Assembly: GCA_037576195.1 (NCBI GenBank)
Contig: CM075102.1
Location: 12,330,245 to 12,394,244 of the forward strand
Source of the DNA: Phytoseiulus persimilis
Lineage: Eukaryota > Arthropoda > Arachnida > Mesostigmata > Phytoseiidae
Direction: 5' to 3'
DNA length: 64,000 bases
The number at the start of each line of letters is the position of its first letter. The stretch's first letter is position 1. The position numbers and the translations under genes are program-made. This document shows positions 4,428-62,540 of the stretch, piece by piece. Under the pieces are notes generated by a model that saw nothing but the letters and a program-made list of their open reading frames with translations, searched no databases and had not been told where the DNA came from.

Positions 4428-6936
4428 ATGTCCAGCTGGTCCCGGATTCTCAATTTACCAGAACAGCTCCTTCTAAGAGTTCTGGGCCTCTACGAGGGAA
4501 GGATTCCGATATCAGTGCGAAAAACGCTCACCCACTGGATTGACCGGCAAAACTGGCTGGAGCTAGATCCGGAGCGTCCTGAACTCCGAAACACCATGCG
4601 ATTCGTATTCGACGAACTCTGCGCTCTGAATGAAGTGGGTGAATCCTAATTCTTGACGAAATGTATCTGATTGCCGGTTCATTTCGAGCGCAAAGTCAAA
4701 TTCACCTGTGCAGTGATTCCGTTCTGAGAAGGCAATGACTGACGATTCCACAGGAGAGATTCAGGAACTCGGCCGGAATCGCCGATCTTGAACGACTCAG
4801 CGGAGCGTTTGCCCAGCTCAGAGAATACTACGCACCAGATCCAACACTTCTGATCGCAGTGCTCCGGGAATGTGTTCTTGAGGAACAACAAATATTGAAG
4901 TCTTTCGACTACTCTATGCCGAGACCCATCGATATGTTCCCCGAAGAAAGAGTCTTGGAATTTCAACAGGATTACAACTTCCTGTCAAGCGACTCACTGG
5001 TACTGAGGCGACGGTTACAGCAGTTGTCGCGTTTCCATATGGAGCTGTTGCGCTTGGGCGACAAATCTGTGGAGCAGGAGAGGCTTCTGCAGGAATATAT
5101 TCTGACTAATGAGCCCGAAGAAGTTGTTCAAAAGATCCGTCTGGAGCTGGAAACTTCTAGGAGCAAAATCAGCAAGAGAACAGAGGATATCGAAACGGCC
5201 TTCCAAAACTTTTTCGAGTGCTTCCATAGTAAGTACGCCCCAGCGTGTCCCGAAGCTTCTAACAATCATCCGGGGGTCGCAGGACTGATCGACGACAATT
5301 TTTTCTTCAGGCAGAGTGGATCGTCTTGCCAAACTACTAATTCGCTTCGTTAACAAACATTTCTGGGAGTTTGAGAGGAGCCGCCAGGCTGTGGCCAACG
5401 GGCACCTCGCGGTAGATAGTCTCAGCACGGTACAGCATTGCTTCGAATGTCTCGTTTCCCTCATACAAACTCACCTCCAGTCTTTACTACAACTCGGCTC
5501 CCTCGTGCGGCAAACACCGAACATGTCTGTGTTTCTCCTGGAATTCAAATTACCCCTTCTACTCGAACGTTTACGCGAGATGTATATAAGGCTCCTACAC
5601 GCTTCTTTCTTCGTCGAGGAGCAGCCTGAGCAAGTTGTATTGAGCGGCGAAAGTCTCACCTGTAAGATCCGCTATCTGCTCGGGAACCGTCTCCTTCCCG
5701 GTATCAGGCCTGAGGTGAGGGCAACCCTTATCAGCGAGGGAAACTTCACAGCGTTCATCCACTCAGAGGATCCTGACAGCAATCCGGAGAACAATTCTTC
5801 ATCGACGAACCTTGAAACCATCTCTGGAGAAACCGCGGCTCGATTCCAATTGAGAATCGGCATCGTCGACCGAACATCAGGCAAACTTCGTCCAACGCCA
5901 GTTATCGGAGGGAAATGTCGTCTCTACTTTGAAGCCAGCTTCAGCGCAGCCGGCTTGAGAGTTCAATTGTGTTCTAGATCATTGAATTTCGTCGTGATCC
6001 CAGACATTAGCCGCCAGAGGGCCGCTAGAGCGAGTGTTTTCTGGGACAACCTCCATCCGGATACGACGAGAAAGTCCTTCGAGGTCCAAGATAAGATGAA
6101 ATGGGGCATAGTGTCTCATTCTCTCTTCACGAAGTTCTATGCAGAGACCGGCATTCATCTCTCAGACCGACATCTCCAATGCTTGGCATCTGAGGCATTT
6201 CGGAGGCCATGCTCGACGGAGATAGGCGGAGAGGAACTGCTGACTTGGTCCGAATTCGGCGAGGACCCACTCCCAGGACGCGATTTCACTTTTTGGGAAT
6301 GGTTCCACGCGAATATGGAGCTGACACGCGATCATCTGAGCCCTTTCGGCCTGAGCGGTGCACTTTTGGGATTCATCGATTTGGAAAGAGCTGAATGTTT
6401 TCTGCGGGACGAACAAAATGGATCGTTCCTGCTACGGTTTTCCGAATCGCACCTGGGGGCTGTTTCGATCGTCAGCGTCGAGCTAGACCAAAGTCGAAAG
6501 CGAGTCTTCAGGAATCAAACTTTCTCCACTCAAGATCTGGAGCACCGCACGCTCGCTGACAGACTGTCAGAGCTGAAGGTGAGTTGAGCTCTCTCCATTT
6601 CAGACCTTCTCTCGATATTTTCATGGCTTATTGCCTCATCGCGACACCTACGGAGTGAAATCCGTTCAGGGGCTCTTCGAAAGTACGTCTCATATCGAGT
6701 GAAATCTTTTGAAATCTCCCCTTCGAGAGGAGAAAACCCTTTCCCTATTTCCCCCGACGTCGCGAAGGAAAAACCCGGAACCGACCGCACCCGTATGAGC
6801 TTCTAGATGCGAGCCATACTCTTTGGTCGAGCTTATTCGATTTTTTTTCCAGAATATTTTATACTGCTACCCCGATACTCCGAAGCACATGCTGATTCGT
6901 GATTTGTGCCCGTTGTCTGGGAATATGAATGTTTGA
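4428..6936 (+). CDS. STAT: STAT transcription factor with shortened C-terminus
   Basis: This is a 677-aa STAT, shorter than the usual 750-850 aa. The exons are 4428-4634, 4754-5228, 5311-6578 and 6853-6936, with phases agreeing at every junction. The N-terminal interaction domain begins MSSWSRILNLPEQ and includes a typical WIDRQNW segment. A coiled-coil domain follows (about residues 110-310), then the beta-barrel DNA-binding domain with FVVIPDISRQRA, and the linker with DFTFWEWFHANMEL. The SH2 domain carries GSFLLRFSES, whose Arg binds phosphotyrosine. STATs dimerise through SH2-phosphotyrosine contacts after JAK activation and enter the nucleus. Here the last exon reads NILYCYPDTPKHML, equivalent to the LYPDxPK strand near the end of the family SH2, then stops about 14 residues later. 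The conserved activating tyrosine and transactivation tail are absent. Possible AATAAA at 7218-7223. Confidence 0.93.
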
Positions 6937-16000: not shown

Positions 16001-19000
16001 TTGCGGGGCTCGTCAGCGACTTCGGCCCCAGCCTCGCCCGCTCGATCGGTGACATCATTCTTGTCGAGGGGCGTTTCGCTAACCAGCTCACTGAAAGGAA
16101 CCGTCTACAACAAAGACCGCCATCTGACGCTGCTCGTCGTCGACGATCAGACGGTCGACTGGTCAGTTCGATTAGTTGAGCAGATATCCCGCCGCGAGCT
16201 GTCGTGAAAATCCTCGTAAAACGACCGGCCGTATTCATAGCGCACTCATCGTTTCCCAGGGCACGTTACTTCCGTGGACGAAAAGTCCACGGCGATTGGG
16301 ACATCCGCGTCGAGCAGGCCGAATTCAAGGAGCTTCAAGTGTGCTCATCCACAGAGCACGGAACCACGGTTTCCATGGCGTCGCTCAGACAGGGCAACAA
16401 AGTGAGTCGCGATTCGGACTTTAATCCTCCGTCACTCGAACGAGGCGGGCAGACCGATTCTCACGGCGAACGCGCTTCCAGATCTCGAAAACCTTCCGCC
16501 CTGATTTCCTGCTGGTTCGCCAGCACGTTCGCGACGCTCATCACGACTACAGGCCTATACTGCTCGGTCTGAGATACGGCGGAGTTCCCGCAATCAATTC
16601 CATACACTCGCTCTACAACTTCCAAGATAAACCATGGGTGGTGAGTATTTTTCTCGAGCTCGCTCGCGGTCGGAGGCGTGAGCTTCAATCGTTGAATGAG
16701 AGGAACGACTGCGATCCCTGCGTTCCCTTTCAGTTTGCACAGCTTCTGAGCCTCCAGCGCCGTTTGGGTAAAGCTAACTTCCCCCTTATGGAACAAACTT
16801 TCTTCCCCAATCACCTTGACATGGTAAGTCGATGAGATTCCAACATGGAAGCGCTTCCCCGATAGCTATATTTATGTAGATCATGGGAACTTGTATCAAA
16901 AAGCGGTGGATCGCGGTGAGAGCTGTGGTTGAGGAACGATCCTCCGCGTTCTCGATCATCCCTTGAGTAGACAGGAGAATAGAGGATCATCGACGAGCTC
17001 GCCGGAGCTGGATATCACAAGGAAAACTTGGTACCGCGACCCTGGAATCATGAGATCCAAAAAGCTCTCACGAGTTTCAGTAGGATCTCGAGCTTCCACA
17101 ATTCGAAGGCAATGGCAAACAATCTATCTGACGAGCTGGGAATGATCTCAGCGATGGGAGCCGCCCAGGGGCCTCAATTCGCCCCGGGTCTGCAACCCTG
17201 CGGGAGCTAAGTCCCTCGCTGGTCCCGGCTGCGGAACTGTCCACTTCGCACCCCTTTTGAGCGTCAACACTCTCTGAAGTGATGACAAGTGCCGGAGAAA
17301 ATTTCCGCCGAGAGCACCTTTTGAGGAATGCTACTGTTGGAGGCATCTCCACACGAGACTTGGGGAAATTACGCGTTCCCGGCGCCGGACAGCGATCCAG
17401 GAAAGAATCGTAGGAAGTTCCTGCGAATGTTTCGCGAGCGCAGCATTCGACTCTCACAATTATTTTGCTTGGGAGTCGGTTTCTACCGCGCGCGGTGAGT
17501 GAGTCTGAGTGGCCTTCTGACCAGTGTGACTATCGGGGACCCAGCTAGAGAGACCGGGCTCGCGTTGCCGAAACGAAAAAGAAGAGAACGGCGGCGGCGG
17601 CAACGACGACGACGATGAACCAGGCTGGCTGGCTGGCAGGCTATTTTTGCCCCGTCCCAGTACTACACTGTTCGAGAGGCTGACTTTCGCGAGTCGGTGC
17701 TTTGTGCGGTTTGCGAGTGAAGTGCGTGCGTGCGCTCTGGGATTCCGATGAGTTTTGCGGCGGAATGACTGAGAGGAGTGAGATGTCCGATCGGGAAGAC
17801 AGCCCAGCGAGTTTCCACTCGCTCGAATCAGATCCTGAGGAGTTTTCCGCCGTCGACGATGGGGCAGCGAACAGTAGTCCCGAACGCACCAAGACGGACG
17901 AGATGGAACGGCTCAGGCTCAAGTTGGAAGCCATGAGCGATTATTCGGCGGAACCACCAGCGCAGAGCGAAAGCTCCGTCAGTGGAGTTCGAGGAGCCGA
18001 TCGGCTATACAGTCGTGCGGGTGAATGCTATTCGTCGGGCGGCTACATTGACACCTACCTCACGGAAGCTCCGCGGCGGAAACCGCCCGATCGGAAGCGT
18101 CAGCGGGAAATCAGTTTGACCAGAGCAGGAGGGAGCAGGAAGAGGGAGTCCTCGGAGCGTTTGGACTCCGCTCAACCCAGGCAAGAAGTTCCTCCGCCTC
18201 TCACCGACCCGCAAGTGCCACGAATCAGTTTCGACGGAGCTCAGTCTTCGACCAGGATGGACTCCGAGTTCGTGAACTCATATCAATATTTCGGGAGAAC
18301 CGTTTCGTCCATTTCCCCCGGCGACGACGAAGACGACGACGAATTCCGACTGCGCCCGCGCAGCCCCTCGGAAGATTTCAGCGCCTCTCACGACTCCCTG
18401 GAGTTCGAACGAAAACCGTTCAAATTGAGCGTTGACGAACTCCAGGACGCGCACATCGACAGGGTGTCACGGGAGGCGGATGACATGATCCGACAGATTT
18501 CCGCGACGCTAGAATCGACTTCGCCAAGAGAGCAGACTTTCGGAAGCAACCTCTATGACTTCCGGGACGACGAGGATCCGATATTCCAGAAGCGCTTCGA
18601 ACTCGACCCCGGGTTCGAAAACCTCTCGCGGGAAGTCAGTCCTTCGCTGCGACTTTCAGGACGGAAGCAATCATTCCAGCAGTCCGGCGAGGACACCCGT
18701 TTCACGACAGCGGAGCTGGAGGATGAACGCAGCCCCAGCCCCGAGGCCTCGACTCTGCGGTCGAAGTTCTCAACGGTCAGAAGAGACTCCACGATGGAGA
18801 AACTGGAAACGCTCCTCACCGCCCACACCCCCAACCCTTCGTATTTCGACACCGAGGCCATGGAAGAGATCTCGACCTACGGTAGGATCCGAAAAATCAA
18901 GAAACAGAGATCCGAAGATCAACGGATCCTCGAGGAGTTCGACAGGCATTTCGATCTATGTTTCGAGGACAGCGGCGAAGAAGACGAGTTCGTCTCGATT

Positions 19001-22000
19001 CACGACATCGACGAACCCACGGACGACCGCTCGATCCCGGCCTCTTTCTACTCCTCGATGATACAGGGCCGAATCGATCGTATCGACGCTGCTGCGGCGG
19101 GCTATCCCGACACTCTTTCGCCGAGGGCAGAAGAAGACGACGACGACGACGACTACCCGAAGAGACGAGGAGACGACGCTTTTGACCTGAGGAGATCGCG
19201 CGAAGTCTTCAATTTGGTCGAGGCTGCGGAACTCGAACGCGGAGACGTGGCCTCGGAGAGACGAAAATCGTTCTATGACGAATTGAGCGATCCGCTGGAG
19301 CCTCGCCGCTCCATCGACGGCCAGACGAAAATGAGAGCCTTGACTCCGACCGAGGAGATGAGTCTGGAAATTCCGCGGATTCCTCGCCTGGAGTCGCAGA
19401 AATCCGACGAGTCTCACGCCGACAGCGAAATGCTATTCATACCGCAGCGGTCCACCATGGAAAGGAGCGCATCGCCCGCCAAAGACGAGGGCATAAAGAC
19501 AAATCGAGGCTATTTCGAAGACATCGACACCTCGGAGCTCGAGGAGAAAGCGAAACTGCAGCGGATCATTCCCTTCGCGGAGCCCGGTGTCAAAGTGACG
19601 TCCACGATCGACGCCCTGGGGGAGAGGCCGAGGACTCCGGTGAAGGCGTGGCGCGCCGAGCTCAACCTGAAAACCGGTGAAAAAATCTACGAGTCCGAAC
19701 GGTATGGAGGCCGTGACAGGGACCCGATTTACGGCGAAGCGTTCGGCCGTTTCCCCGTCCGTAAATTCCAAACGATGGACCCCAGTCGAGCCGCTCCCGA
19801 TCTGGGCGCGAGGAGGAGTCGCAGAGACCTGTCCCCTCGCAGAAACCTCTACGAGCCACCGGCACCTACGGGACGAACGTCGTACAAGCAGAAGTTCGCT
19901 GAAGCACCCGCCGCCAAAATCACGTCGGCCTTCAGCGCTGCCGTCGTGGACAGCGACTCCTACGGTGACGTCGGCTCCGCCGAAGACGCGAGGACCTCGA
20001 CCTATCCGCAAAAACACGAAAAAAGGAGACGGAAGCAGGCTGTCCTCCGAGAAACGTCGAAGGATCGCTTTCTACGGGAGCTGGAAGCCACCCCGGAGCG
20101 GCAGCGACGCAAAAACTGGACAGAGAGCGCGATGTCAAGCACAGAGAGCGCCGAGCCGCAAACTCGCGGCATTTCTCCGCGGAATGTCCGTCGAGTGCCG
20201 AGCTACGAGCTGATGGAATCTCCGAGCGTTTCGCAGAGCCAGGACCCGCCGGTAACAGATCGGATGTCCAAACTGGAGACGCCGGAGATCATAAGAACGA
20301 TTTCCGCCGAGAGCACCGAAGAGTGGAGTCAGAGCGGCTATTTCGTCAAACCGCCGAAACGAACTCGGAGCAGAAACAGCTTCGTCGCTTATACGACATC
20401 CGAGCGCCCCGGCACGAGCTTTGGTCGGGGTTCAAACTCCGCGTTGGTGCAGGATACGATGCTGGCTCCATCGCCGCCGCGGAGAACGAGGTCCAGGTCT
20501 CGCTTGAACGAGGAGCCGAAGGAGGACATCCTCGGCGCGACCAGGCCGAATCCGCCAAAAAGATCGCGATCGAGCAGCGCGACGCGTCATCCTCATCGGG
20601 AGGGCGATTCGTTTCGAGACGCCCCGAAACGGTTCGGGGGAGACGCCGCGCGATTCGATCCAAGATCCGGGAGCTCCGACCGAACAGTCGAGGTCGATTC
20701 CGCGGCACTTCGACGTGAGGAAGCCTCATCAACCGCTCGCGGTGAGGCTCTGAGCGGAGGTGTCGGGGAAGAGGCAATGCATTCCGATCTGAACTCAGAT
20801 GTCTATTCGGATGAAGAAATATCGACCGCGTTCACGGTGACCTTCAAGCCGGGAGGGAAGATTGCGGACATAGAAGAAACCCCAGTGCAGAGCTCGAAGA
20901 GTTCCAGCCGACGGAGCTCGAACTCCGGCGTCGACGAACGGCAGCGAACCAAAATGAAGAGGAACCAAGAACTCCTTCAGAGAGCGATCGAAGGCATAGA
21001 GAGCGATCCCGCGATGGAGACTGACGAGTCAGAGAACTTCGCCGGCATCCTGCCCGACGACCAGCAGCTCACACCCAAAGTCGGTAGACGCTCGAACGGG
21101 TCGAGAGGGACGATTTCAGCCAGCGCCTCGGTCGGGCTGAACGAGGATTTGGCGGCCGCCCCGCTCGTCGGGGACATCGGTGAAAGTTTCGGGGCGAGCA
21201 ACTCCCTCACGCCCACGCCTTCTACCAGAGAGCTGGAGCCCACGGCGGTCCTGACAGGGAGCGAGGAGTCAGGAGTCGCCAGAACTCATGCGGCTGCGGC
21301 TACCTCAGCGCACGATGCACGCGTTGGCTCCCAGGAGTTTACGAGTCTCGGGGATCGAACTCAGGCCGTTCCCGGCGTTGTGTTCGACCAGAACGAATCG
21401 AAATCGACTGGCGCCGCAAACGCCGAGCTCGAAAATGAAAGTCGGCTGAGAGTCGGACTGGCGGCGGAGAAAGCCGCGAATCGCCTCGAATCGGGGACAG
21501 CGCATTCAGGGCTGACGCGAGCTAATGACGAAATAGATACCATTGCAGTCAACAAGCGAGACCCTCCATACTACTCCGACACAGCAGAGACAATGAGTAC
21601 CGCGAGCCACATGACGGCGATCGAGAGACCTCGTCTGGAAGTCGGACGGAACAGCTCGGCTGATGAAGCCGGCTACGAGCTCGTAGATACGAGCGGCAGC
21701 TACGAAAAACCCAGACCGCCCGGCCGGAGGCGGAAGAGCAGCGCTACGAGCGGCTCCGCCGGCAACCTCAAAATAATGTCTCAGGACAGATTCGGCCTGG
21801 TGAAACCCACCTACAGCGACATCAACGATTGGGCTCGCAGAGCTCTGAGCAGCGATGACGAGATGTCCTCGTACCACGAGGATCCTCAGCTCGACGAGCA
21901 TTTCGATGAGACGTTGCACGCAATCGACAAGATGCTCGCCAACACTCCTCGCGTCGAGCTCGATCAGCTGGCCGAGTCAGCCAAGCACGCACAGATCTCG

Positions 22001-25000
22001 AAGTACGAGGAGCTTTCGAATCTGCGGGAGGCCTTGCGTCGCAAAATCGAAGAACGTCAATCGCATCACGTGGACCGTCGACAGCAGGATGGTCCGGAGC
22101 CGGACACGTTCGACCCTCCGCCACGTGAAGAGGACCGAGGCAGGCTCGAAAGGGACGATCCGTCCCTGCGAGACTTTGTGCGTGCGTGTCCTGCGGACTT
22201 CCCGAAACCCGAGGAACAGATCACCTCGATAACGGGAGTTTATATCGGAGGCATCGGGGAGCTGGATCGACTGACCGGCGGCCTGAACATCACGAGACCG
22301 ATTCTCGAGCCCGAAGAAGGAAGCCAGCCCCCGGCGGAGAGCGGGAACCTCCTCGGGGGTCTGCTCCGTGGCATCCGTAAATCGATAGATATGGGCGTCG
22401 CCGAGCTTCGGAGCATAAGTCCGCGGAGGCAATCGTCCGCCGAGGAGACGCAACCGCAGCGGGGCTTCTTCAGCGACATCCTTCAGAAGATTCAGGACAA
22501 AATCGTCGACGCGGTGGCGGCCGATGACGGCGCCAACAGGAAAGTGATCGCCGCTGGCGAGATGCGGCTTTCCAGTGACAAGGAAACTTTCCAAGAGAGG
22601 CCCAAGTCGGCGCTGTCCGGTGTCTACGGTGAAGTCGGCGTCGCCCGCGAGAGCTCGCTCCCCTCGGCGGTCCGACCTCCCCCTGTCTACACGACCGACT
22701 CCGAGATGAGCGTCATCGACTACGAGATCCGGAAGCGGCCCCGTCGAAGACGGACTCGGGACCGAATCTTCGACAGCAGTTCCGACATCCCCAACTCATC
22801 GACGAACGAAGACTTCGAACCCCTGTTCAAGGCCGGCGGGAGTCGGGACGGACGCGCGTTCATCGACGACATACTCCGAGTCCCCAAAGTCCCTAAACGA
22901 ACCAAAAGTGCAACGAATTTGAGCGAGTTCGCTACCAACCTCTCAGTTCCTGTTTTGCCGAAGAGAACACGATCGGGATCGCTGGCGGTTCCGACGCCTC
23001 CGACACGGACAAGATCGAAGGACTATCTGCGATCGAGCACTGAGCTGCCGCCCCCGTTGCCGCCCAAGAACTACCAAAAAATAAATCAGTTTCGGGAGGG
23101 AGGCAGTTTCGCACAGTTTGGCTCTGCGCCAGCTTCCACCACGCAGAATCGATGGCAAAAAGGAAAATTCACCGACCAATCCCTGCGGGTGCAGGGATCG
23201 TCTCTGTCCGAACGCGGAACTCTTCCGGCCGAATCTGAACCTCTACCCGGTCGCAGAAAAGCAGACTCGGTCTCGACAACAGCAACAAACGGGATTCCTG
23301 AGGATTTCTCCCGACCGCAGCCGTGCCAGAGTTCTCAGTTCGTTCCCGGGGTCCAAGATGATGTCATTCCCGCCGCGCTCAGTCGAGCAGATGAGAAATT
23401 ATCAAGGGTAGACAACGTCACAGGTTCTGTTGCGCCAGATCAATACTGGACGTTCCAAGACGCGTTGTCGGATCCGATGCCCTCGAGTCAAGGAGCGAAT
23501 CTCTCGACGAAGAGCTCCGGCCCAGTCGTTCCTCCTCAAACCACAACGAACCCCGTCGAGGAGGATGTCTTCTACAACGCCCTAGAGACGACGCCCTGTG
23601 TTCCGACTGACGGGGGCGGTCAATCTCGGCCCTACGACGCCGTGACAGCTCCCGGTCACCGCGTGCAGACTCCTTCGGAAGCAGGAACCGAGAGGATCAG
23701 TCAAATCGATTACAAGGCCCAACAGAGGCTTGTGAGCAGCTCTCCCGATCGCTCAGCGCAACCCCGAACGGATGTGATCCCTGCAGAAGCTCCACCGGCA
23801 CCACCCTACATTGAGCTCAGTAACTACGAATCGTACAGTGATCAGAAATCGGCCCATGAGTATGAGCTGCCCGAGCCCGGTCCCCATGGAGCTCCGCTTC
23901 AGGCCGCGGTGGGTCGCGGGGCGTACGGTCCCTCTCCTGTCTCACGAGTGACACCACTCGCCCGAAAATCATACGAAAGACCGCCCACGGGCCCCGAGCA
24001 TCCCCGTTTATTCGATGCGCACAAAACGCTTCCGGAATCGGAAAAGGTGCACGAGCTTCCTCTGAACGATTCGGCGTTCAGCCAAAGATTCGGCGAGACG
24101 ACACAGTCGAACAGAAGCGGCCTGGTAGATAGCGCTTCGCGTGGGCTGGAGAGCACAGGCCAAGGTCAAAGCACGTACTACGAGTCCACGCCTGGGCGAG
24201 ACCAACATCGCCCGCCAGTTCCCGCTGCGATGCCTGCGAAGGAATCGGTCGCGTCGAGCGCTATTCGGGGCAGCGCGGCTAATCCCGCCGGACGGGAGAC
24301 AGGGACGACAACCCGGGGAGCAGCGGACGTCGCTCAACCGATTTACAGCTACTCCATGAAAACTAGAGGGCACGTTCCGCCACCTCTTGAGAAAGTCGGC
24401 CAGGGTCGGCCCACGCCCGAATTCGGTCAACCTCCCCATGTTCGGGGTCAAGACCCGACGCCCTCTCAGACTGCGGTCGCAACTCCGGATTCGGAACTCA
24501 CCGGCGACGCGCAAGGCTTTCTGTCGAAACTGATTCCATCTAGAACGAAGAAGAAGAAGCGCCCAACTCCGTTTTTGAAAATTGACAAAGCAGAGCTCGA
24601 AAGGTTACCAACCATGCGACCCGCCAGCCCCTCCCCGACTCGAAGGGAGTTTCCCGCAGCGGAGGAGATGAACTCGCTTCAAGTTCCCGGGCAAGGCGCG
24701 GGAGAGGGGGAATCGGGCGTGGGTTTCACCAGACGGCTGATCCGACGAGGCTCCAACGCCCTCCTTGAGCTGACGGGCTCTTTCCGTCGCCATCGCTCGC
24801 CCAACGTTGTCGAAGGAGCCGTACCGAGTGATTCCCCGTACCAGACGACCGTTGTCGAGACAACGGATGGCACCGCATCGGAGATTAAACAGTTCTCCGA
24901 ACATTCGCCCACGGCGTCTCCGAACTCGAACTCGAGCCCGAGCATCTTACGTCGCCCGGAGAGGGTCAAAAACGAGCCGGGAAGCGCCCCGGAAAAAAAC

Positions 25001-28000
25001 ACCCGGGTTCAGTTCATCTCGAGTCCTGTTCACGGACGCGTCCTGAAATCTGAGTCGAAACCTTCAAAGGCTGAGAACGACCCACTACTTTTTGAAGAGC
25101 CAACGGGTCCCATCGTGATCGATTTGGAGCTCTCCGCCAAGGACATTTCGTTCCCGGTCCACGGGCGCAAACTCAAACTCGCCACAGAGGGAACAGCTCA
25201 ACCCATCAGGCCGACTGAGGAAAGCCATCTCTTCTCTCAGTATTCGGACAACGCCGACGCTTTCCCGCGAAACAAAATCCCCGATATTGATCCTCGTACG
25301 CAGATTACCGGAATCGGCAGGGGAGACGAGATGCGAGGGCAGTTCGAAGACGAGGAGTTCGAAAAGGACATTTTCATTCCCAAGCAAGCCAAGCCACCGA
25401 TTTCTCTGACGAGAATGCTCAAGGGTGCACTGACCGGTAAAGGCCTCCCGTGGAGCAGTCAATTAGGAGGCAGGGAATGGGCGAGAAAAAAACAAGGGCG
25501 AATGGAGCTAAGGAAGGGCCAAAACTCCCTGCTTCCCTCAGTTCAGATCGGCGCGGCGGGGTTGGAAGCTCGGGAAATTTTCGGCGAAGAAGCTCGATTA
25601 CGCAGAGCTCAAGAGGAGCTCGACGAACCGAAAAAGGTTTCGAAAACTGTTTCGTTCGGGGACCTCATGGATATCAGACAGTCTTTTCGTAACGAGGAGC
25701 TCGCTCGTATGGTCGCCGGAGCCCCACCCGACGCAGTTCTGGCTCACGTCAAGGCGTCCCCATACGTCGACAGTATGACCATGGAGACAATCAAGAAGCT
25801 ATTGGTTCCGGATTTCGCGAAGCTGCGGGAGCGAATCGAGGAGAAACTCCGGAAGAAAATTCCGAAAGAGAGAACCGAGAAAAATTATCAGCCTTTCAAG
25901 TTCGAAAGAGGCATGAACGTCCCGAACGAAGAACTCACCTACGAGCGAGAAGGACCGCTGAAACTCAACTCGAGCCGCAACTCCGTCCACGTCAAGCCTT
26001 CCGGAAAGTCAGCCTCTCACTCCGTGGATCCCATCGCTGATTTGCAGACCCTGGATCACTCAACGAACAGGAATTCAGTGTTGGCGCCCGCAGTTGCTGA
26101 GGTGAAGAGGAGCGCCTTCGAAGTGATCGAAGAAGCTGCTCGAAACGCTTCACAGGAAGTTCCGGCTCCTCTGATCCCGCCTCTGGAACTTCCTTTCGAG
26201 ACTTTTGCCCCGGTTGCTCCCGCTGGTCAGACAAGTGTGGGCACCATTCCCGCGACGAGCCGTGCACACATCGACGTGCCCATGAATCCACGCAAACAAG
26301 TCTCCGACATTCCCGCACCTGATATCGACCTGTGCAATCGACGGTCCTCGTTGATTTTGGTAAATGCCAAGGACTTGGATCTGGCGAAACCACAGCAACT
26401 CAGTGAGTTGACCAGCGTCAACGTCGACTTGAGAAAGTTGAGACAGAAATTGCCTACATACAAACAGTTCAAGGCTGCTGAAGTCTAGACGCTCGACTGA
26501 CTGCTTCATCGACTGGAGCGATACCCGGTCAACATCTCCTGGCACCGAAGGTCAGTATCAGAGCTGAGCTGCGGAGCTCCGATAGAACGAGCTCGAATTG
26601 CGTTTCCACATAACGACATTGAGAACCATCTTCCAGGAGGCTGTGTCATTGCGCTTGCGAGCGATTTGTGGATAAACTGTGACCGCGGACTGTACATAAG
26701 AAGAAATTAATTTTTGTAAACATATTTGCTATATAACAAATAAAAAAGACTCCTGTCTAGCTGTTCATATTCTGGTAGATGATTTTGCTGAATGAGCTTG
26801 ACGAGGCTCCGACGATGCGTTTGGTCCGTGTTTGTGGAGACAGTGGAAACCAAACAACTTCGAGGTACTACTGACCTTCGACGCTCACGTTCTGACACGC
26901 GAGGAAGCGGGGAGAAATAGCAGAGGAGTGAAAACTTGAACCCTATTGGGAGGAAGTAGAAAGTCGGATAAGGCTTTCCACGTTCCATTAACTGTGAACA
27001 GGGATCGCCGGCTCCCACGAGCGTTTTCAATCTAACTTGTGCTTCCCTTCATCAATATATGCAAAACAAAAACCGAAGAGGAGAGTAACACTGAGAGCAA
27101 CACATCGCAAATAATGTTTCACTTCAAATTCCAAATTTACAGTGCCTGAGTGTACCGAATTTCCCGTGTGTTGTCAAAATTGCTCACGCGCACGGCGGGA
27201 TTGGAAAAATCAAGGTGGGCCCAAGTTAATTCCTCAAAGATGATTCGAGCTTCACTGTTCAGATCCCCGTTGCCCATACGCAATCTTTGAAATTCCTTGA
27301 CTCGCTCATTACAGGTCGAAAATCAGTTCGATTACCAGGACGTACAGAGCGTCGTGGCAGTTTCCCACTCGTACTGCACAGTTGAACCATTCATCGATAC
27401 CAAATATGATTTACATATTCAAAAAATTGGCACCAACTACAAAGCGTTCATGTAAGTACTCTAATAGAGCACGTCCTTCATCCTGCCCTGGAGCCGGAAC
27501 TCTCCGTTATGGCGCCCGTCCGGGAGCTTGGTCACCGAAAGTGGACCTTATTCTGGTGCTAGCAGCATGGGGAAATGAAGTCGAGCAAATGAACACGGAG
27601 ATAGCGAGATCCATTCTCGAAGTTCTAAATCTTCGGGATCGAGCCGATGACCCACGGCTCACGTCAAGGCCGACCGGATCCGACAAACCCGCCGCTGTGG
27701 TGGATCCCGCGCTGGGAATCCAGCCCTCCCGACACCATCTGTGCGCCATTCTGTTGACGGGTCCCACAGAAAGGGGCAAAAATAAAGTGGGACGGCTTTT
27801 TGTCACTTTCCAGGCGGAAAAGCATTAGCGGAAACTGGAAAGCCAACATGGGCTCGGCCATGCTAGAACAAGTAAGAAAGAGCCTCCTAGAGACAGAGAA
27901 TCCATTCCACCCTGATCGAATTTAAACGAATCGGAAGCTGATACGTCTAAATAAATTATCTCGGTTCAGGTTGTCCTACACGACCGTTATAAGTCTTGGG

Positions 28001-56758: not shown

Positions 56759-59700
56759 ATGGGTGATAAGGTAGGGTCGCGCTGCTGGCCTCTCGGCCCT
56801 CAGGCTCCCCCGCCTCCCAACCCATGGATTGAGGAAATGCTTAAGCGAGTGTACTTCACTCCGGATTTGGATCTGTGCGGCTTGCTGGACGACTCGGCAG
56901 TGCCGGTAAACAATGCCCCGCAGCAGTTTTCATTGCCGGACGTCTATGATGCGCTTGAGAAAGTGCTCGTTCCAAGTCGCGCTGATGAGCTGGAGACCGT
57001 CGATGGCAGGCTGGGGCCAAAGAATGTAGCTTTCGACATAAATTCCAATGTTGGCTCCCTCGTGATATCTCAAGATCGACTGGGAGTCACCAGCCAGAGC
57101 AACTTCAACACAGTCAAAGCTAACTGCTGCGTTTTCACGGGACGATGGCAATATGAGGTAAAGATTTGCCTTTGACTCATTCTGAGATCCCAAGCTGCGG
57201 AAGAACGCATTGAGAGATTTTCGCTCTAATCGAATACAGGTATCCCTGGGAAGCAAAGGCGTCATGCAGGTTGGATGGGCGACTGCGAAATGTGAATTCA
57301 ATGAGGAGGAAGGCGTGGGTGACACCAAGAATTCGTATGCTTTCGACGGCAACAGAATAAGGAAGTGGAACGTCTCGAATATGAAGTACGGGGTAGCCTG
57401 GTTGGCGGGTGATGTCATTGGCTGCTGTTTGGATCTGGACAAGGTGGGAATCGATCGAGGATACCAGCGCCGAATGATGATTCATCCATCAAGTCCTGGA
57501 GCGCTCGAAAGCGATCCATCATTTCTGAAAGTGATTGATTTTCCAGGGCTCTGTGTATTTCTATCGGAACGGTGTTTGCCTAGGCGAAGCCTTCAAAAAC
57601 ATAAGGAGAGGTCCAGGATACGCATACTTTCCGGCGGTTTCTTTGTCTTTCGGAGAGAATCTCGTGGCCAACTTCGGAACGAGTCGGTTTCGCTACCCTG
57701 TGGACGGCTTTTCGCCTTTGGTTCCCGCTCCCGACACAACGAAAGGCCAACTAGTGTGCGATATGATTTACAAGGTACTTCTGTTAAAACATCCATCAAA
57801 TCCAGCGTAGGTTCTCGTTTCGTGCGGAGGACATCTCATTGGTCTCTGGTTTCAGGCGCTCAAGGTGTACGAAGAGGCGGAAAAGACCACGTTCAAAAAG
57901 ATGAGCGATGATGGCGCTCAAATCCTTCTGAAAGGAAGTTCCTCTTTAGCACTCCTCGTGGCAGCTCCTGTGGTGGAATATTTCCCTCTGGTTGCGGAAT
58001 CTCCGTTCGTTCTCGAAGTGAGCTTGCGTTTGCCAATGATATGATTCACGTTTTGTGATCGGCGGTTCCAGATTGGGTGTCATTGCTTGGCGGCCGCCTC
58101 CATAACGATCGAGTTATTTTTTTCAGGCGACTTTGGTCCCACTCTTAGAGAAATTGCTCGAGAAAGACCCGCGTCATATAGTGAACCTCCTGAACATGCT
58201 GTGGACTCTCCTAGAGTGGCAGCAAATTCATCAGGCTCTGGAGAAACTTTCGAGTGTTCTCATCAGCTCCTACAGTTTTGCATCATCTAGTTTGGACTAC
58301 GGCCATCAGAAACGGGTTCTGCAGATATTTGTCAGCCTCCTCTCCCATAAGTACACCAGGAGATTCCTGATGTGCAAAGTATGTGGTCGAGCGATCTCAG
58401 ATCGTGGCGCTCGATTATAACCGATTCTGTCAGAATATCCAGTCAAAATCTAACGAGAATGAGAATTCGCGAACTAACCGGTGTCCCCCTGTCCAGGTGC
58501 TCTTTGAAAAAGGTCGATTCTCCACCTTGATGAAAGTCAAACCCCTAGATATCCAGCATCTCGAGCAGATCGTGCCTCAAATCTGGTTCGAAGTAAACGA
58601 GGTAAATTTCGTTTCTCGTCCTGCACTCGCTAGGCTCGCGATCGCCCATGATCGATTGCTTGGATGAATCAGACAGGGAGAATCCTAGAGTTCGGGCGGA
58701 TTGAGTTTACCACTTTTCTCGGGGATTTCCAGGAGCCTCCTCATACACCGGACGACGCGTTCAAGAAAGCATCTTATACCCAAAGCAGAGACAAGATCAA
58801 GGCTGTAGTCTCCCAAGTCGAGGCCCTGCAGATCGAACTCCTGGTCAAAGTTAGTCCATCCGTCGGTAACCTATCGAGAATGTTGGTTCAGTGGAGCCGA
58901 GACCATACGGAACACTATTTTCCGCGAGCCAGGTAACTCAAGACGATGACAATTGTCCGCCACTCGGTCAGACTTCGAGAGACAAATTCCTGTGCGAGTT
59001 TGAGAAGCTACTCAAAGAACACAGTTTGGCGCATTCCGCCACAACGCTCCAATCGAATCTCTCTACGGTTGCTATATCGTATCTACACAGACTGATCAGG
59101 TTGGCAAAGATTCGCGTTTCGGTCAGGTTTTCCATTTAATGACTCGTTCTTCTAACGCGAGTGTTGTTCGTGATAAAGAGTGACACTCCCTTCGCAGCAT
59201 AATTCGGCGATGCCTCCCGATCGTGAATCCGGTCGACGGGTCCGACCTCCGCGAGTCCTGCTTCTTCGTTCCGGTGTTCCATTTCCTGGGCGAACAATGG
59301 ACCGCGGGAGACACCTCTCGAGTGGGCGGATTATACTCCCATCTGAAAACAACGTTCGCGACCGAAATGAAGGTCATGCTTAATTCTCTCGCGTCCGTGC
59401 GGCAGCCAGCGAGAGATGATGTACCCTACCACCAAACTCTCCCCCAAGTGGATCGGGCGAAAGTTACCTCTACGATCAAGGTTCGAATCTGCCCAATCGT
59501 AAACTCGCTCTCGGCGGAAATCCTCCTGGTCACGTTGCTCGATCGCTCGAATTCTAACCCGTTTGTGCCGTCCCGGGTTCCACCGCAGGTTCTGAAGCTA
59601 GTCGACTCTGTGGTTCGGCTCTACTCAGCTGTCGTTCACGAACAACTTGAGAAAGTGAGTTGAGAAGTTTGGGTAGCTCTTGAATCGAGCTGGGATCGAA

Positions 59701-62540
59701 TATCAGAGAACGACTCTCTTTGCAGGCCGCAGCGCTCCGCGATAGCATGAAAGAATACTTGAAGGCATACCGGCTGACGCTGGACGCTATGGCTAAGCTG
59801 GGAGAGAACAGCTTCGAAAGGGTTCGGCTGTCGTGCTCGAGAGACGTTTTCAAGGAGAAACTCGACGAACAAGCGCGCCAAATGGCATGGCTCAGTGCCA
59901 CGATGTTCTCGAGAGAGAAACAAGGCGACCTATATTGGCTTCTGCAGGTGACGATTTCCGCTTCCAATGGGTACGAGGTCCGAAAAGCAAACTAATACCC
60001 ACTAATCGAGCTTATTCATTATCAGGTTGTAATATTCACACTCGAAGAGGCTTCGAAGACGGGGGAATGCTTTGCTTTCGTTCCGGACTTCTACGTCGAA
60101 ACGTGCATCAAGTTGTTCCATTCTCTGACGAGTCTCTTCCCTCCGACTTCGAGTCTTTCAGAAATACCCGGTCATTACAACTTGCAAGTGAGTTCAACAA
60201 GCTCTCAGGTCATAACTCAATCCGAAGTTCGAGCTGAGATTCCACTCGGTTCCAGGTGAGGTACAGCACGTTCCTCGCTATGCACTTCTCGGACAAGAGG
60301 GTGGTCAACGCGGATCTCAAGGATACGTTGATACAAGCCCTGGCGCAGCACGTGTGCCCACCAGAGACCCTGAGATCGCTGGAGTGTATGAGCAACGAAT
60401 CTTCACAGGTCAGGATGGAGCTCCCGGACCCGAGAAACCCCGAAATCTCTTTGATTTCCGGAACATTCCGTCGAGCGCAACATGCGGATTCTAAATTCTC
60501 CCGTTTATAGATGATGGTATCGGCCTTGCTCCGACCTTACGATCGAGCATGGGCACAATCCAATTGGATCCTCGTTAGGCTGTGGAAAGGTTGCGGATTT
60601 GCGTTCAGATACAGGTTGGTGCTGTTTTCCTCAATCTGTCGACTTTCTTCGGATGGAAACAGAGGAGACGCTTCCGAAGGAGCGGCCGAAAAATTCCAAA
60701 TGATTCGAATATTTTTTTTTTCCAGCGAGGCACCCCACCTCGTGGAGAAGAAAATGTCTCTGTTGAAGCCGCGCGTGACTCCCGTGCTGCCTCCGCACCC
60801 TCCACCGTGTCCATCTGTTTTTTATCAAGTGAGTGCGGCTCCGATTTGTTAGCAACCCTACTGCGCGTAGTTCTTACTCAGCTCAGGGTATCGATATCCC
60901 TAGAGCTATGTTGAATGGGATTCGCTGGTTTCAAAACGATTCTTTGCTCCAGAATCTCATCTCGAAATATCTGGAAGAACACCCGGCCAACGCATCCGCG
61001 TTCATCGAGTCCGTTCTCACTCAGCTAAACTGGGCTTTCTCGGAGTTCGTTTCGATGCTTCAGGAGATACAAACTGCTCACATAAGACCTGAGAGGTGAG
61101 TTTTCTCCTCATTTCGGGAGGCAAGCCGGAATTCAGGCGCGATCGCATGCTGGTTGTCGGCGGAGAAATATTCCTAATGATCCGAAACGCTTCCTCAGAG
61201 TCCTGATCGACTCCCGTCATCTCAAAGTGTGTTCGACTTGTTTCAATCTGACCGTCGCATTGCTTCGGGTGAGTTTGTCTTCCAAATTCCAACTCTGCAA
61301 TGATCTATCTCGCGCGGCAAGAGTGAAACCTCAGTTCTGTCATGAATCCCCGTCTCAGGTCATCGAAATGATTGCAAATCTGAGTCCGAGCTGTCTGCTC
61401 CGACCTGCGCATGCCTCATCGATGTTCCTCCCTCGACTTCTGCAAACGCTGTCGCACATCCTGAACCGTGTTTGCTACGGGAAGGTATGTACTGCACGCT
61501 CGGATTGGTACGACAGGGAAGTTCCAACTGAGTCGATACATTGGGGGCATATACTTGAGGTCATTATTTTTCAGGGCTGTTTCGACCTGGTGGTCTCCCT
61601 GGACATCATCGGTCTGGAGAGCATCGATCATTTCGTCATTATAAGCGCGGTTGCTGGTAACTATCTCTGTATTCAATCGCCTCACCGGCCGTTTTCCTCT
61701 GCAGCAGGCATCCTGAACACCCGATGATAATTGTTCCAGGCATCTTCATAGCCTTGCTTCTGAAGGGACCGAAGGAGAACAGAGAACTGGTGCTGCAATG
61801 CCTTTTCCAAGAATCGAGTTTCGTGCCTCAAAGCATCGAGGCTTTCCTCGGATTTCCCGTGACTGCAAATGCACCCAGCACCACATCTGTCGGTAATCAG
61901 AGAGCCCTGACGACCTGTGCAAAAACCCCGGCGGACGGATCTACTTTCTCTTTAGCAAACTACGGAGACGTCAAAGAAGAAGAGATCGATCAGGTAACCC
62001 ATGGCAATCGCGAAAACTCAGAGTGGCCGAGAACAGCTCCGTTCCGGTTGATAATGTATTTTGGGGCTCTATCAAGGGGCCAAGGAAAAAAAACTCCGAA
62101 CCCGCTTCATTCATTAGGTCCGCCAGCTGATTCAGCTCATAAGGAAGGCCTACGCTTCTTCCGGTTCCCAATCGGACACTATGGGCCTTCGCAAGCAACA
62201 ATCCATTGATCAGGTACAGTGAGCTTCGAGAGTTTCTTTTCCCGTCAACAATTTTCGATGGGCTCACGGTGACAGTCGGAAGGTGGCGGAAGTAATCCGT
62301 CAAGTCAACGACGGGACCATCTGTAACGAGCTCATATTCCAGGACTCTGAAGATGTATGCACAATTTGCTACGCGGCCACGAAGAGCGCTGTTTTCCAGC
62401 CTTGTCTGCACGAGTCCTGCCGAGACTGCATCCAGCTGCACCTCATCAACCACAAGGAGTGCTTCTACTGCAAAACCTCGATCACAAGCGTTGAGACAGA
62501 TCCGCCAGTGGAGATTCCGAAGACAGCACCAGAAGACTGA
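56759..62540 (+). CDS. RNF123: RNF123 / KPC1 E3 ubiquitin ligase (21 exons)
   Basis: The model gives 1,309 aa (human 1,314). Exons: 56759-57157, 57240-57443, 57547-57774, 57856-58017, 58127-58378, 58497-58601, 58733-58849, 58933-59099, 59198-59654, 59725-59946, 60026-60187, 60256-60408, 60511-60614, 60726-60828, 60887-61095, 61199-61268, 61359-61484, 61575-61656, 61740-61993, 62118-62213, 62283-62540; phases agree throughout. RNF123 is the catalytic subunit of the KPC complex, which ubiquitinates p27/KIP1 and NF-kappaB p105 in the cytoplasm. The SPRY domain (about residues 85-280) has [22 protein letters not shown] and [17 protein letters not shown] long helical middle includes [23 protein letters not shown] and LNWAFSEF. 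The C-terminal RING reads [16 protein letters not shown], then HESCRDC and CFYC, with all eight zinc ligands. Bases 59481-59588 (108, no stop) may be a further intron, which would give 1,273 aa. Confidence 0.95.

Follow-up and report, generated by a model that had tools for sequence, protein, structure and literature searches.

Synapsin, a gene of the nerve terminal, carries in Phytoseiulus persimilis inside one of its introns, on its own strand, a single coding frame for 2,907 amino acids, and this same-strand nested frame is real and unusual. It lies in a stretch of 64,000 nucleotides (hereafter the window) that corresponds to positions 12,330,245 to 12,394,244 of contig CM075102.1 (C2:12330245-12394244) in assembly GCA_037576195.1, a genome of 181 Mb in 127 contigs; positions without a contig prefix are counted from the first letter of the window. 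Judged by collinear similarity and reciprocal best match, and in two blocks only, the nested gene is a paralogue of the N-terminal exon of the CYLD gene of the same genome. The frame probably belongs to a separate gene that shares its front end with CYLD and has a transcript of its own.

The host intron occupies 16824-27142 on the plus strand and begins with gtaagt and ends with ttacag, and its flanking exons join in phase 0; it measures 10,319 bp, versus 93, 100, and 362 bp for three nearby introns. The exon before it (16734-16823, +), which ends in FFPNHLDM and is followed by the gtaagt donor, was recognised by splice consensus, by its in-frame join, and by the presence of Synapsin_C at the locus. 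The exon directly 3' of the intron (27143-27214, +), a further exon at 27315-27451 (+) that matches the Synapsin_C profile, and one that starts at 27814 continue the reading with in-frame joins and GT-AG sites. All six genome-wide matches of the Synapsin_C profile fall at this locus.

Within the intron the frame runs from stop to stop over 17684-26488 (+) and comprises 2,934 codons, its first in-frame ATG stands at 17765, and it closes with TAG at 26486-26488, so that the coding sequence (17765-26488, +; delimited by open-frame scan and stop counts) lies as a whole inside one intron whose bordering synapsin exons splice in frame. It is the longest frame of the window, where the next on the plus strand has 432 codons and the longest on the minus strand 272; the remaining five frames across the coding stretch contain 45-89 stops each, and the chance of 2,934 open codons, given the base composition of the intron and independent bases, has a log10 P of about -47. 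The only AATAAA or ATTAAA in the intron outside the frame is an AATAAA at 26739-26744 (+), which probably serves the nested gene for polyadenylation. A preceding sequence-only reading had claimed both the phase-0 join of synapsin exons across 10.3 kb and a same-strand frame to which an ATG, a stop, and an AATAAA of its own belong, and both hold at these positions, the next synapsin exon being still in frame; its description of the gene as intronless is secure for the coding frame only, and the gene as a whole may have an intron in its 5' untranslated region (5'UTR) at 17495-17660.

Kinship of the nested frame with CYLD

In a search of the nested protein against the genome (16 of 31 candidates scored) the protein found itself and one other place, C2:36426819-36427109 (-), with 46% identity over residues 325-416. 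This second match lies inside a frame of 1,037 codons, or 1,015 amino acids from its ATG, which appears to be a giant exon of CYLD. The similarity consists of two blocks that are collinear in both proteins and make up 6.5% of the nested one: block 1, residues 52-131 (17918-18157, +), with the core PPDRKRQR(Q/E)ISL and 38% identity over 82 columns (E 0.003), and block 2, residues 333-440 (18761-19084, +), with the pattern TMEKLE ... EEFD[KR]HFDL ... DSGEED.FV and 41% identity over 113 columns (E 3e-18), where the BLASTP E values refer to a nominal database of 10^6 letters. Against the CYLD exon the score of residues 325-416 was 208, where no shuffle exceeded 56, and that of residues 1-324 was 114, where no shuffle exceeded 92 (200 shuffles each). 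The reverse search with the CYLD exon returned only these two genes (10 of 10 candidates scored), and the back-translated motifs PPDRKRQR and EEFD[KR]HFD each occur at exactly two places in the genome, one per gene, while the reversed controls occur nowhere. Identity at codon positions 1, 2, and 3 of the aligned blocks was 0.51, 0.70, and 0.34 over 102 codons and 0.48, 0.57, and 0.23 over 69 codons; the blocks diverge more at position 3 than at position 2, as under selection at the protein level.

The CYLD gene itself is recognisable by its other exons. The giant exon (C2:36426222-36429266, -) stands directly before an exon that matches Pfam CAP_GLY with E 1.6e-10 as a 93-residue piece and 9.7e-10 as a 203-residue frame, and modelled GT-AG introns of 120 and 131 bp would link the giant exon, a 60-nt exon, and this CAP-Gly exon in frame in phase 1-1; skipping of the 60-nt exon would also keep the frame. 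The best PDB match of a protease exon is 2vhf, the CYLD ubiquitin hydrolase (E 3.7e-11), this exon has a single genomic match and is thus single-copy, and further protease exons were recognised by eye. By its position and its in-frame join to the CAP-Gly exon the giant exon therefore, in this gene model, most probably opens the coding sequence of CYLD. Its 1,015 residues appear by eye disordered, with a coiled-coil-like tail.

According to the available text of a comparison of CYLD over five phyla, the protein combines CAP-Gly with the protease and no extension of this kind is described, while the worm protein has its catalytic Cys at 774, so that long front ends do occur (PMC5796713). Among the matches listed for the open-licence literature, in the text available, no description of the giant CYLD extension was found. 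The two proteins share the pair of blocks, in matching order and inside the first 440 residues of the nested one, and are similar in composition, and both genes have an acceptor-like site shortly before the ATG (in CYLD seen by eye); they differ in that the nested protein is 2.9 times as long as the 1,015-residue exon product, has no match to CAP-Gly or to the ubiquitin-specific protease (USP), and is unmatched beyond residue 440.

Composition and family searches of the nested protein

Ser, Arg, Glu, and Pro are abundant in the nested protein, while Cys occurs only 6 times, Trp makes up 0.3%, and a hydrophobic span is absent; this resembles the make-up of disordered proteins, as far as composition by itself can indicate. 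The motif PxxPx[KR] occurs 10 times versus a shuffle mean of 2.9 (reached in 1 of 1000 shuffles) and RT[RK]S 5 times versus 0.29 (reached in none of 1000), figures that are optimistic because the motif classes were picked after the sequence had been viewed. Motifs resembling PxPP-[KR]RTRSxS are gathered in two clusters, at residues ~863-950 (20351-20614, +) and ~1710-1768 (22892-23068, +).

The family had been given as unknown by the sequence-only reading, which no longer applies to the N-terminal blocks shared with the CYLD giant exon and continues to apply to residues 441-2907. For this part, 85% of the protein, no relative was detected in Pfam, in PDB, in the comparison with the CYLD exon, or in a genome search with the C-terminal 662 residues, which had no second genomic match (2 of 2 candidates scored). 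The whole protein gave nothing above chance in Pfam, NCBIfam, or PDB: NCBIfam returned no match, Pfam NUMOD4 (E 0.096) and ATP-synt_ab_C (E 0.11) remained under the cut-off at chance level, and the sole PDB match, a xylanase with E 1.5, was also at chance level. A scan of viral contigs for relatives yielded 292 pattern matches and no relative. As to the functional domains of CYLD, the nested protein has no Pfam UCH match and no PDB protease match that would point to a USP, in a setting where Pfam also misses the true CYLD protease and the PDB search recovers it, and no Pfam match to CAP-Gly, though the CAP-Gly exon of CYLD itself scores.

Several candidates for the shared block were likewise set aside as chance, each having stayed below its cut-off or appeared in a single member. 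These are ERCC1 (two-row profile against PDB, E 0.12), NUMOD4 (E 0.0016 in one of the two members, 19.1 bits versus a cut-off of 23.4), and three Pfam families each seen in one of the two members: the splicing-complex family NTR2 (E 0.02), DUF3479 (0.028), and DUF4806 (0.033). The last was also rejected for the whole CYLD giant exon (E 0.013).

As a tentative proposal, which we regard as unlikely, the product would be a largely disordered cytoplasmic scaffold, whose shared blocks would bind the partner of the CYLD extension and whose proline-arginine motifs would gather SH3-type partners, so that it would compete with CYLD or bridge to it.

Transcription, origin and rival explanations

The candidate 5'UTR intron (17495-17660, +; GCG|GTGAGT ... 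CCCCGTCCCAG|TAC) was found by splice scores. Its donor at 17495 is the best of the host intron after the host donor, and the acceptor at 17661 is the best before the ATG. Of 500 dinucleotide shuffles, 7 contained a pair of this quality, in this order and at such a distance, when scored with crude weights and thresholds fixed after the pair had been seen; the result suggests that this GT-AG pair may delimit a 5'UTR intron of the nested gene. Beside it stands a 6-codon upstream frame (ATG at 17748; 17748-17768), whose TGA overlaps the nested ATG as ATGA in an arrangement like that of termination-reinitiation.

For the origin of the nested gene it is proposed that a stretch from the 5' end of CYLD, which left out the exons for CAP-Gly and the protease, would have been copied at the DNA level, would have landed in the synapsin intron, and would then have grown to 2,907 residues. 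On the question of a retrocopy, the 3' exons of CYLD are unmatched in the nested gene and the shared part lies within one exon, because of which loss of introns would not be visible. Among same-strand nested genes a parallel is Mcts2, a retrogene in sense orientation within H13. Both are nested genes with their own transcription unit in a host intron, while Mcts2 is a retrogene and the gene described here shares the 5' part of its relative, unlike a typical 5'-truncated retrocopy.

The proposed gene would have a transcription start of its own upstream of 17494, undergo one splice in the 5'UTR, and receive its poly(A) tail after 26739; as long as it is silent, synapsin transcripts would be spliced across it, whereas its activity could make them terminate early in the intron. 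According to the available text of the sources, the active nested gene at H13/Mcts2 is accompanied by intronic polyadenylation of the host and the Mcts2 promoter is controlled by DNA methylation (PMC13309782), and a nested gene that is active can lead to polyadenylation within an intron of its host or to exonisation (PMC13309782, PMC3192792).

Several results weigh against a separate CYLD-derived gene of this kind. The nested gene is read here from genomic sequence, and none of 5 core-promoter patterns was found upstream of it. The splice scorer is crude, and it is weak because it gave low scores to true synapsin acceptors (0.62 for the host acceptor and -0.49 for another); within the nested frame it placed the acceptors 25547 (5.13) and 19067 (3.76), both of which would keep the reading frame if spliced to the synapsin donor, above or near the 5'UTR-intron acceptor 17661 (4.86). 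Similarity to the CYLD exon is not significant for residues 417-1500 (105 versus a shuffle maximum of 114) or for residues 1500-2907 (70 versus 103; 200 shuffles each). Pfam, when applied to five CYLD frames, found CAP_GLY in one and nothing, the protease included, in the other four. As to the product, the looser basic motif of basophilic kinase type, [RK][KR]x[ST], is not enriched (13 versus 10.2 expected, reached in 233 of 1000 shuffles), and the binding of partners is a guess from motifs. Finally, two sequences cannot polarise the direction of copying.

The last point bears on the alternative that survives best, in which the nested gene or an older stand-alone gene like it is the source, from which CYLD would have obtained its giant exon by exon capture. 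It agrees with the five-phyla comparison, whose available text describes no such extension, the worm Cys at 774 notwithstanding (PMC5796713), and with the fact that in both genes an AG after a pyrimidine tract stands shortly before the ATG, in CYLD as seen by eye. The nested gene, on the other side, sits in the intron of an older gene, as is expected of a later insertion, which does not polarise the pair either. Exon capture is a possible course of events and clearly the less probable one.

A second explanation is that synapsin transcripts make use of the nested frame, which would serve them either as their alternative last exon (16824 joined to 25547 or 19067) or as a second cistron (16824 joined to 17661). 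The host donor is the strongest donor in the intron, and the in-frame position of 25547 and 19067, not shared by 17661, together with the lack of any stop before the own stop of the nested frame after these joins, makes a synapsin isoform with the end of the nested frame possible; the join to 25547 would add its last 313 residues to synapsin, while the join to 17661 would end synapsin 19 codons later. On the other hand, one acceptor in three is in frame by chance, and the out-of-frame acceptor 18660 reaches a similar score (5.17). That a good donor, 17495, lies a short way before 17661 fits an intron internal to the nested gene's own 5'UTR, and the constrained residues 52-131 and 333-440 lie, except for the last 6 residues of the block, upstream of 19067 and 25547, so that such synapsin joins would omit them. 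According to these data the use of the frame from synapsin transcripts is considered improbable, somewhat more so than exon capture.

That the frame is decayed or open by chance and has no product is very hard to believe: residues 441-2907 have no detected relative and the frame is known from DNA only, but its length (log10 P about -47, with 45-89 stops in each other frame), the constraint of codon position 2 over position 3 in the blocks shared with CYLD, and the enrichment of PxxPx[KR] and RT[RK]S all argue against it.

The synapsin locus and its guests

A separate nested gene in this intron has to be compared with the usual guest of synapsin, TIMP, no Cys pattern of which had been noticed in the intron by sequence-only reading. 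The wider search is in line with this: all 8 antisense frames of at least 150 residues in the stretch were without a TIMP match, the TIMP profile PF00965 gave no genome match at E up to 10, being a profile that also found no match in any control genome and so had no working control, and the nested protein, with its 6 Cys only, matched neither TIMP nor NTR. The NTR profile had four genome matches, none in the window; three of them, scanned against Pfam, were NTR and not TIMP, and of two compared with PDB one was netrin-1 and one gave nothing. Such searches could miss divergent TIMPs split over exons. Two of the NTR matches, one of them netrin-like, lie about 27 kb apart (C2:20753062-20780710, -) and possibly represent tandem netrin genes.

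Around synapsin the window contains STAT exons (STAT_linker, STAT_bind, SH2) upstream at 4739-6587 (+) and exons with SPRY and RNF123-type TPR downstream at 57186-61727 (+), probably an RNF123 gene. Scans of the window for Rfam families, tRNA (in the bacterial setting), and tandem repeats were empty. In the whole genome neither the arthropod-type telomere repeat TTAGG nor the nematode-type TTAGGC was present as a run of 30 bases.

The case described here differs from the known synapsin nesting in guest, orientation, and size. The present guest is about 14 times longer than a TIMP. The boundary of vertebrate intron 5 presumably lies before the exon that encodes PVVVK, and the host intron may correspond to it. 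Common to both is a foreign gene within a synapsin intron, possibly the homologous one; for human synapsins the available text places TIMPs in intron 5, giving an intron number without a residue (PMC1867822). As far as the accessible part of the source tells, every species examined except C. elegans has TIMP inside synapsin in reverse orientation, an exception confirmed by the nematode Brugia, and from sea anemone to human the position of the nesting is conserved among animals (PMC2825198), while the guest here is on the same strand and unrelated to TIMP. In a second source, also seen in excerpt, synapsin-TIMP belongs to the two overlapping gene pairs that persist between fly and human, and same-strand overlaps are selected against (PMC2330155). 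This nested gene was not found described among the matches listed for the open-licence literature, as far as their available text extends.

It is conceivable, though doubtful, that the ancient antisense TIMP guest was lost in this lineage and that its intron was re-occupied by a giant same-strand gene with the front end of CYLD, whose transcription would control full-length synapsin. If this is true, a locus whose conservation is described between sea anemone and human would have replaced its guest and acquired a new regulatory link. The giant sense guest offers a natural test of two questions: whether the synapsin-TIMP nesting has a function or has only been inherited, and in what way a host gene tolerates a sense guest of 9 kb with a poly(A) signal. 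Kinship with CYLD makes an orphan frame tractable, and the CYLD extension in turn offers two conserved blocks as handles.

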